DNA from: Micavibrio sp.
GTDB lineage: Bacteria; Pseudomonadota; Alphaproteobacteria; Micavibrionales; UBA2020
DNA: 64,000 nt
Direction of reading: 5' to 3'
Assembly: GCA_028283745.1 (NCBI GenBank)
Contig: JAPWJZ010000008.1
Span: forward strand, 62,001 to 126,000
The position numbers were made by a program, and so were the translations under genes. Under the pieces are notes generated by a model. It was not told the origin of the DNA. It was given only the letters and a program-made list of their open reading frames with translations, and made no database searches. This document shows, in pieces, positions 7,037-9,496 of the stretch. Each line of letters starts with the position of its first letter. Positions within the stretch are counted from its first letter, which is position 1.

Positions 7037-7088
7037 ATCAAGAATTTATTCTATTGCTAACAAATCATTAAATGAAACCTTAAAGACG

Positions 7089-7103
7089 TTAACTTGTCTT
7101 TAA
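7089..7103. promoter_or_regulatory. Candidate CtrA box TTAA-N7-TTAA
   Basis: TTAA at 7089-7092, seven bases, TTAA at 7100-7103: the full CtrA recognition pattern. It overlaps a possible -35 (TTGTCT, 7094-7099) with TATTCT at 7115-7120 as -10. Two more TTAA copies lie just upstream at 7068-7071 and 7080-7083 (eight-base spacing). That CtrA binds this pattern is established in Caulobacter; that it acts here is inference. Confidence 0.5.
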
Positions 7104-7126
7104 CCGCGAGGCGGTATTCTGGACTT

Positions 7127-7217
7127 AGGAACAAGATTGGTTCCTTCAAGTTTTGACCTTCATCTGTGCCTCCTCGTGACGTCTTCACCACCGCCCTTCA
7201 CCGGGCGGTTTTTTTTT
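7127..7217 (+). ncRNA. Candidate trans-acting small RNA with anti-Shine-Dalgarno CCUCCU
   Basis: A stretch of about 91 bases with no credible reading frame but full small-RNA architecture. A possible promoter (7094-7120) predicts a start near 7126. A 5' hairpin AGGAAC/GTTCCT (7127-7132 with 7140-7145) follows. Then comes an unpaired stretch containing CCTCCTCG (7169-7176), complementary to ribosome-binding sites, and finally a strong intrinsic terminator (7190-7217). CCUCCU motifs are a known seed in several alphaproteobacterial small RNAs. I do not recognise this one as a named family. The alternative is a long leader of the hydrolase gene at 7317, but the terminator would cut that off. Confidence 0.5.
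7190..7217 (+). terminator. Intrinsic terminator
   Basis: Seven-base-pair stem ACCGCCC (7190-7196) with GGGCGGT (7203-7209), six-base loop, then a run of nine T from 7209. It would end the candidate small RNA and any read-through from the Na/Pi gene. Confidence 0.88.
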
Positions 7218-7316: not shown

Positions 7317-8033
7317 ATGACCGACAAGCGTAAAACCATTATCGCCCTTCACGGCGCGGGCATGACCGCCGCTGTTTTCGGCGGCATTGCGCCGCTGCTG
7401 GCAGACCATGCGTTTCACGCCATGACGCTGCCGGGGCATGATGACAGCGCCGCGCCGCTGCAAAGCATCGAAGCCATGGCAGACTGGGTGAAGACGCGCA
7501 TTGATACCAGCGAAGGCCGCGTTATCCTGCTTGGCCATTCCATGGGCGCGCTGGTGGCGCTGCAGGCCGCCAATGCTCCCGGCGTTGAAGCCGTGGTGTT
7601 GATGGGCTGCGCTGCCACCATGCCGGTGAACGGCGACCTTTTGAAAACCGCGCACGAAAATCCGCCCGAAGCCATTCGCCTTATTTTGAAATGGAGCGTC
7701 TACGGCGCGGGCGCACAGGCCGAAACCATCAAGCCTGTGCTGGAAAAGCTTATGAACAGCGTCAATCCCGCCGCCGTCGGAAGCGACCTTGCGGCCTGCA
7801 ACGGCTTTGCGGGCGGCAATGCGCTGGCCAGCCATTTGCACAAGCCCGCGCTGATTCTCTCCGCGACTCATGACAAAATGACCAAGGCAGTTGAGGGTGA
7901 AGGCCTTTCAAGGTTAATGCCGATGGCAAAATACCGCGTTTTAGGCGATGCCGGCCACATGATGATGGTCGAGCAGGCAGCCGAAACCGCAAGGGAAATC
8001 AAAGAGTTCCTGCAAGATATGCCGGCGGCGTAA
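7317..8033 (+). CDS. Alpha/beta hydrolase (AB hydrolase-1 type), substrate unknown
   Basis: A 238-residue cytoplasmic alpha/beta hydrolase. It has the oxyanion HG motif (ALHGAGM, 10-16), the nucleophile elbow GHSMG (73-77, Ser75), a candidate acid Asp in SATHDKMT and the catalytic His in GDAGHMMMVE near the C-terminus, so the triad looks complete. ATG 7317 is chosen because AAGAGG precedes it by six bases; a longer in-frame extension would run through the terminator. It stands alone, with its own candidate promoter. The substrate cannot be told from sequence. Confidence 0.88.
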   Translation: MTDKRKTIIALHGAGMTAAVFGGIAPLLADHAFHAMTLPGHDDSAAPLQSIEAMADWVKTRIDTSEGRVILLGHSMGALVALQAANAPGVEAVVLMGCAATMPVNGDLLKTAHENPPEAIRLILKWSVYGAGAQAETIKPVLEKLMNSVNPAAVGSDLAACNGFAGGNALASHLHKPALILSATHDKMTKAVEGEGLSRLMPMAKYRVLGDAGHMMMVEQAAETAREIKEFLQDMPAA

Positions 8034-8409: not shown

Positions 8410-9039
8410 TTAAGCGGCGTCGTTGTCTTGCTGAACATCAGCAGCAGCGTCGACGGTTGCGGTATCTTCATCATCTTCGTCAGCCGCGGTGGCGGGGCCG
8501 CCGTTTTTCTGGCGCTCGATACGGCGCTGGGCTTTCTTGACGGCTTTGTCGAGTTCTTCCGAGGTGCAAAGGCCGATTGACAGCGGGTCGACCGGTTTAA
8601 TGCTGCTCATCATCGGGTGCGTCTTGTTGCGGATAGCGTCAACGGTCGGCTTGGTGGAGCCAACCAGTTTTGCAATCTGCACATCCGCCAGTTCCGGGTA
8701 GCGCTTCAGCAGGTAGGCAACCGCGTTGGGTTTCTCCGCGCGTTTGGTGACGGGCGTGTAGCGCGGGCCTTTGGAGCGGGCCTTCGGCTTCGGCAAATCC
8801 GTCTTCATCATTTTCAGTTTGGCGTTGGTGGTTTTTTCGCAGCGCGCGATTTCTTCCGCCGTCAGCTCGCCGTTCAGGATGGGGTTGGTGCCCATGATGC
8901 CGGAGTTCACTTCGCCATCCGCCAGCGCTTGCACTTCCAGCGGGTGCAGGCCGCAGAATTCCGCGATCTGGTCAAAGGTAAGGGCCGTGTTGTCGACCAG
9001 CCATGCGGCGGTCGCTTTGGGCATCAGGGGGTAGGCCAT
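8410..9039 (-). CDS. trcR: DUF1013 protein, TrcR-like cell-cycle transcriptional regulator
   Basis: A 209-residue protein of the alphaproteobacterial DUF1013 family, which as far as I recall is named cell cycle transcriptional regulator TrcR. The N-terminus starts MAYPLMPKATAAWLVDNTAL, then TFDQIAEFCGLHPLEVQALADGE reads like a helix-turn-helix. A second one lies around PELADVQIAKLVGSTKPTVD, and the conserved IGLCTSEELDKAV follows. The tail is acidic (DEDDEDTATVD). ATG 9039 is preceded by CGAGGAG; an upstream in-frame start at 9072 lacks homology. The family's role is mostly from Caulobacter-type bacteria; direct targets here are unknown. Confidence 0.85.
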   Translation of the reverse strand: MAYPLMPKATAAWLVDNTALTFDQIAEFCGLHPLEVQALADGEVNSGIMGTNPILNGELTAEEIARCEKTTNAKLKMMKTDLPKPKARSKGPRYTPVTKRAEKPNAVAYLLKRYPELADVQIAKLVGSTKPTVDAIRNKTHPMMSSIKPVDPLSIGLCTSEELDKAVKKAQRRIERQKNGGPATAADEDDEDTATVDAAADVQQDNDAA

Positions 9040-9202
9040 GGAATAACTCCTCGTAAAACTGGTTGCCCCCAAATGCGGATATAGCTCAAGCTGCCGCGCC
9101 CTTTTGGAAAAAGGCGACGATTGACAGAAGGCTCAATCGCTTTGGGGAAGTTGCCAGCAATATATCGGCTTATCCCTGCATGAGTCCAGAGGTTTATCCC
9201 CG

Positions 9203-9409
9203 TCAGGCCAGTTGCGGCAGGAATTTGCGCGCCATGTCCGCCGTCGCTTCCGCGCCGGTGGTGTCATTGGTCGGGGTTGTCAGGCGGGCGGCCTGGTCAA
9301 AGCAATAAGCATTGCTCCCATAGGCGGAGGAGACGTACAGGCCATGCGCCATATCGTGCGAGGGAGAATGTGATTTGTAAGAATTGTTGAAATTAAAGGT
9401 TAAAATCAT
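9203..9409 (-). CDS. Small hypothetical protein
   Basis: A 68-residue frame starting MILTFNFNN with a good ribosome-binding site AAAAGGAAT before ATG 9409. The N-terminal coding part and leader are strikingly AT-rich compared with neighbours, which may mean recent acquisition. It has no signal peptide or membrane helix and no family I recognise. The C-terminal half (DQAARLTTPTNDTTGAE) is polar. It lies between the trcR-like gene and another small unknown, all on the minus strand. Confidence 0.5.
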   Translation of the reverse strand: MILTFNFNNSYKSHSPSHDMAHGLYVSSAYGSNAYCFDQAARLTTPTNDTTGAEATADMARKFLPQLA

Positions 9410-9496
9410 AATTAAATTCCTTTTAAGATATAAAAACTGGAATAAAACTACCATTCGCGCTTTCTTCTGTCAAATAAAAAGCCGGTCGCGCACAGC

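Follow-up and report, generated by a model that had tools for sequence, protein, structure and literature searches.

The stretch at positions 7068-7217 of the window, a 64,000-nucleotide (nt) segment of contig JAPWJZ010000008.1 from Micavibrio sp. (assembly GCA_028283745.1), looks like a genuine, conserved small-RNA gene of Micavibrio-like bacteria. The predicted small RNA (sRNA) is about 91 nt long and lies on the plus strand at 7127-7217, with its start placed from a -10 element and its end from a terminator. It probably represents a new trans-acting sRNA family which would be activated by CtrA and block translation initiation. No match was found in Rfam 15 at the gathering threshold, the best sub-threshold score being 17.3 bits against 50. 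The sRNA family is not registered in Rfam and is a new family of a known kind (CcnA, EcpR1, NfeR1).

The locus was picked out in an earlier reading of the window, made from its sequence alone, which listed a CtrA box, a -10 element, a predicted start, a 5' inverted repeat, CCTCCT and a terminator. Sequence inspection found every one of these in its place. The observation was confirmed because the box, -10 element, core and terminator recur in relatives and because the terminator stem carries compensatory changes. The analysis established the anatomy of the locus and its conservation, covariation in the terminator and the presence of CtrA and Hfq genes, with CCUCCU open by prediction.

Distribution in relatives

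Relatives were searched at the DNA level and then by pattern and covariance searches. The element was present in 16 of the 18 genomes of the same family. A second family contained it in four genomes, with the box visible in the three that had upstream sequence, and a third family contained it in one genome, G028. All three families are within one order. When the homologues were aligned in one orientation the box, the -10 element, an 18-base block and the terminator were common to them while the remainder diverged. The sequence-only reading had let its proposal stand or fall with whether relatives keep the box and hairpins. Both box and terminator were kept; the 5' hairpin was not conserved outside the genus.

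Two genomes of genus g3 (G013 and G015) were without the element. Their assemblies are incomplete (93% and 87%) and loss is thus unproven.

With the covariance model, the largest family of the order, f3, yielded no convincing homologue. Nor did 385 genomes drawn over the class, where inspection was confined to the top matches and these did not have core, promoter and terminator together. A pattern scan of public contigs returned named records from Micavibrio, unclassified Alphaproteobacteria and Proteobacteria, one Rhodospirillaceae and one Rhodospirillales. Scattered unrelated records (Arthrobacter, Bacillota, Thaumarchaeota and others) were returned by the same scan and were taken, uninspected, as chance.

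The 18-base core

The conserved heart of the element is a block of 18 bases, UUCAUCUGUGCCUCCUCG, found as TTCATCTGTGCCTCCTCG at 7159-7176 on the plus strand and proposed as the pairing region. Its mean pairwise identity was 0.94 among eight representatives of seven genera. For the flanks of the same eight it was 0.26-0.35 before the core, 0.42-0.45 over the 14 bases that follow the core and 0.21-0.23 past the terminator. The reverse complement of the core, CGAGGAGGCACAGATGAA, is an exact Shine-Dalgarno sequence, 5-base spacer and ATGAA. The anti-Shine-Dalgarno motif CCUCCU (CCTCCT in DNA, 7169-7174, plus strand) is predicted to be mostly unpaired, with a mean unpaired probability of 0.60-1.00 in 18 folded homologues. 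The element therefore has the conserved, unstructured pairing region by which a trans-acting sRNA is recognized. The CCUCCU seed that had been proposed is present and mostly open, and as a description it understates a near-invariant block longer than CCUCCU and complementary to a whole initiation region (Shine-Dalgarno, spacer, AUG and AA).

The proposed 5' hairpin fared less well. The inverted repeat AGGAAC...GTTCCT is present at 7127-7145 on the plus strand but is conserved in genus g1 only. It is absent in g3, most of whose RNAs are without the whole upstream part, and it does not form in the minimum-energy fold of the window RNA.

Promoter and CtrA box

The full CtrA box TTAA-N7-TTAA, TTAACTTGTCTTTAA, is located at 7089-7103 on the plus strand. 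The -10 element TATTCT is located 11 bases 3' of it, at 7115-7120. TTAA-N7-TTAA was exact in all 19 homologues with usable upstream sequence, which come from the first two families, and the N7 bases had diverged. The gap between box and -10 element was 11-12 bases in the same 19, with TATTCT, TATACT, TACTCT, TATCTT or TACCTT as the -10 element. The distance from box to core ranged from 42 to 96 bases. As the gap from box to -10 is fixed while the box-to-core distance and the N7 vary, promoter and core are each conserved as a module of their own. When the 130-base upstream regions were shuffled a full box arose by chance in 0.1-4% of cases for each region; the genomes are related, so these probabilities are not freely multiplied.

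Counted from the predicted start, the 5' base of the box is at about -38. Full CtrA boxes whose 5' base is near -35 mark CtrA-activated promoters in Caulobacter, where boxes of the repressor class overlie the -10 and the CtrA-bound promoters include six noncoding RNAs (ncRNAs) (PMC4287350). The genome encodes a CtrA 69% identical to Caulobacter CtrA, and an Hfq gene is also present. Putative CtrA control of the predicted sRNA, as first suggested from the sequence of the window, draws strong support from the fixed arrangement of box and -10 element in the 19 homologues.

The predicted transcription start coincided with an ATG in all three second-family loci L083, L022 and L081. These ATGs give leaderless mini-open reading frames of differing length (MDGDLF, MNRDFFMWFLKSRFICASS and MERVF).

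Terminator

An intrinsic terminator, an ACCGCCC-TTCACC-GGGCGGT stem-loop followed by a T-run (the U tail of the RNA), is located at 7190-7217 on the plus strand. Changes on both sides of the stem, i.e., compensatory changes, were found in four of six pairs. Paired cells made up 95.8% of the stem compared to 86.4% in shuffles. The covariation alignment was fitted to the model, so this count leans towards structure; a first alignment made without structure pointed in the same direction more weakly. A conserved promoter and a conserved, covarying terminator, both predicted from sequence, are the features expected of an independent transcript.

Evidence from the window

The evidence from the window sequence by itself is modest and suggestive only. 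The predicted RNA fold was 1.8 standard deviations better than shuffles. Two full CtrA boxes were present in the window compared to 0.27 expected.

The second full box, TTAAATTCCTTTTAA, is located at 9412-9426. It lies close to the 5' end of a small open reading frame on the minus strand (9203-9454), the true start of which may be downstream of the box.

Proposed mechanism and targets

Transcription, CtrA binding and its sign, Hfq use, pairing, repression and target identity are what we infer for the element, in the following way. Phosphorylated CtrA would bind the box, which overlaps the -35 region, and activate transcription; this would probably happen in late, predivisional cells, in which CtrA is high. 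The RNA would begin near 7127 and end at the strong intrinsic terminator, whose U tail is a typical docking site for Hfq. The core, most open at CCUCCU, would pair with all or part of the Shine-Dalgarno sequence, spacer and start codon of a target mRNA and so block ribosome binding. Messenger RNAs would probably be silenced in this way at one cell-cycle stage.

A number of observations weigh against this mechanism. Genome-wide, full boxes exceed the reversed control pattern only mildly (79 and 63, respectively). In several predicted folds the core is partly paired outside CCUCCU. G028, the third-family homologue, has TATAAT and no full box, and because of this the predicted CtrA control is not universal among homologues. 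The remaining points concern targets, for which the searches used restricted patterns and short stretches around pattern matches. No gene start in the element's own genome was fully complementary to the core, and the full core complement with up to three mismatches gave 15 sites there compared to 16 for the control. Partial complements gave no widely conserved target.

Of the sites matching GGAGGCACAGATG with up to one mismatch in 15 family genomes, those with loci lay mostly within coding frames. The patterns AGGAGGCA-N1-6-ATG and CGAGGAGG-N3-10-ATG found real gene starts, none of them common to many genomes among the subset of matches examined. The ctrA initiation region showed moderate pairing with the core and no clear conserved site. 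At L349 (G000:C5:683980), in the element's own genome, the ribosome site of a secreted-looking 130-residue protein contains TCACGAGGAGG, with 11 contiguous pairs to the sRNA. An ankyrin-like gene in four relatives (L292, L351, L358 and L359) has a similar start region, TTTTTAT..C-CGAGGAGG..ATG, which may be a target common to them or no more than a strong ribosome site. The secreted protein and the ankyrin-like gene are candidate targets. They are leads and not findings, since by our rough estimate chance alone would give one or two matches of this kind.

A wider role for the core can be considered. As a generic complement of initiation regions (Shine-Dalgarno, spacer, AUG and AA) it may be near-invariant through action on many mRNAs, and the sRNA would then be a CtrA-timed broad translation brake acting in one cell type, or at one stage of the cell cycle, in Micavibrio-like bacteria. 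We regard this as rather unlikely.

Gene neighborhood and alternative explanations

A Na/Pi cotransporter-PhoU gene is located upstream of the element. Downstream are an alpha/beta hydrolase gene (7317-8033, plus strand; Pfam Abhydrolase_6) and then, on the opposite strand, the gene of the cell-cycle regulator TrcR (8410-9072; Pfam PF06242, 188 bits). A cytochrome c1 gene is also among the neighbors. In most genomes of the same family the element is followed by the hydrolase gene. In the second and third families it has other neighbors, as would be expected if it were an independent gene. TrcR, which is context only, lies about 1.3 kb from the sRNA in genera g1 and g2 and in G028 (55% identity); no TrcR gene turned up in the g3 or second-family loci examined, some of which were short. 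The nearby trcR-like gene to which the earlier reading drew attention is thus real, and carries little weight as the linkage is seen in some relatives and not in others.

The hydrolase gene could be regulated in cis if the element were a leader with an attenuator, the terminator controlling read-through from the CtrA promoter. It is on the same strand in most family genomes and in several is only about 15-40 bases past the terminator. Several hydrolase genes, however, have a TATAAT-like element between the T-run and the ATG, suggesting a start of their own, and no competing anti-terminator was evident in the alignment or folds. In G028 the next gene lies on the other strand, and in the second family it is either convergent or heme A synthase-like (named from sequence alone). 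An attenuator is possible for the hydrolase but leaves the wider conservation unexplained, and we consider it improbable.

The element could also be a real sRNA that CtrA does not activate, with the box bound by another regulator or with CtrA acting as a repressor. G028 retains the core without a full box and TTAA-N7-TTAA is common in the genome, both of which agree with such an arrangement. It has little likelihood given that the full box is exact and its spacing fixed in all 19 homologues, that a CtrA gene is present, and that the box position fits the activator class and not the repressor class, which overlies the -10 (PMC4287350).

A short coding or start-site element at the core is very improbable: the plus-strand frame TTC ATC TGT GCC TCC TCG TGA (FICASS-stop) is present in most of the family, and in the second family ends in TAG or TAA with several synonymous substitutions, but an in-frame start is missing from the short g3 RNAs, and G007, G017 and G028 lack the stop at this point. 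The minus strand reads as a perfect Shine-Dalgarno plus ATG (AGGAGG-5-ATG) but its frame stops after five codons here and at differing places elsewhere with no conserved protein, and the orientation of promoter and terminator fits a plus-strand RNA.

Relationship to known small RNAs

CtrA-controlled small RNAs are known mainly from Caulobacter. No CtrA-controlled small RNA was found for Micavibrio-like bacteria in literature searches. The predicted trans-acting sRNA was compared by description with CcnA, a cell-cycle ncRNA of Caulobacter crescentus with CtrA-linked expression, which likewise has a C-rich seed and acts at ribosome-binding sites, those of ctrA and gcrA (PMC8959179). CcnA is 182 nt long, is encoded in the replication origin and has CCCC in loop A; the window RNA is about 91 nt with a linear 18-nt core, no CCCC in that core and unrelated neighboring genes.

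EcpR1 of Sinorhizobium meliloti is also an alphaproteobacterial trans-acting sRNA with a strictly conserved pairing region; it represses by a seed at the ribosome-binding site, acting at ribosome sites and start codons of the cell-cycle mRNAs dnaA and gcrA (PMC4414408). Its seed, UCCGCCGCAUCU, is in a stem-loop, it is restricted to Rhizobiales, and it belongs to the stringent and stress response and is not known for a CtrA box. The alpha-r14/NfeR1 sRNAs share a CCUCCU-type anti-Shine-Dalgarno seed blocking the mRNA initiation region (PMC10746234, PMC3927594), and repression through a seed at the ribosome-binding site is reported for NfeR1 (PMC10746234). They have three hairpins, each with CCUCCUCCC, and are under LsrB/NtrC control. 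The three-hairpin fold with unpaired CCUCCUCCC was not found in the window RNA, which has a single CCUCCUCG inside a longer linear core and lies under a CtrA box.

If true, a compact, strongly conserved sRNA under a CtrA box would extend post-transcriptional cell-cycle control to the Micavibrio order. It comes with a built-in prediction, namely that the 18-nt core pairs with initiation regions. Since some homologues have the box and others do not, it could be tested how an sRNA enters the CtrA regulon or drops out of it.
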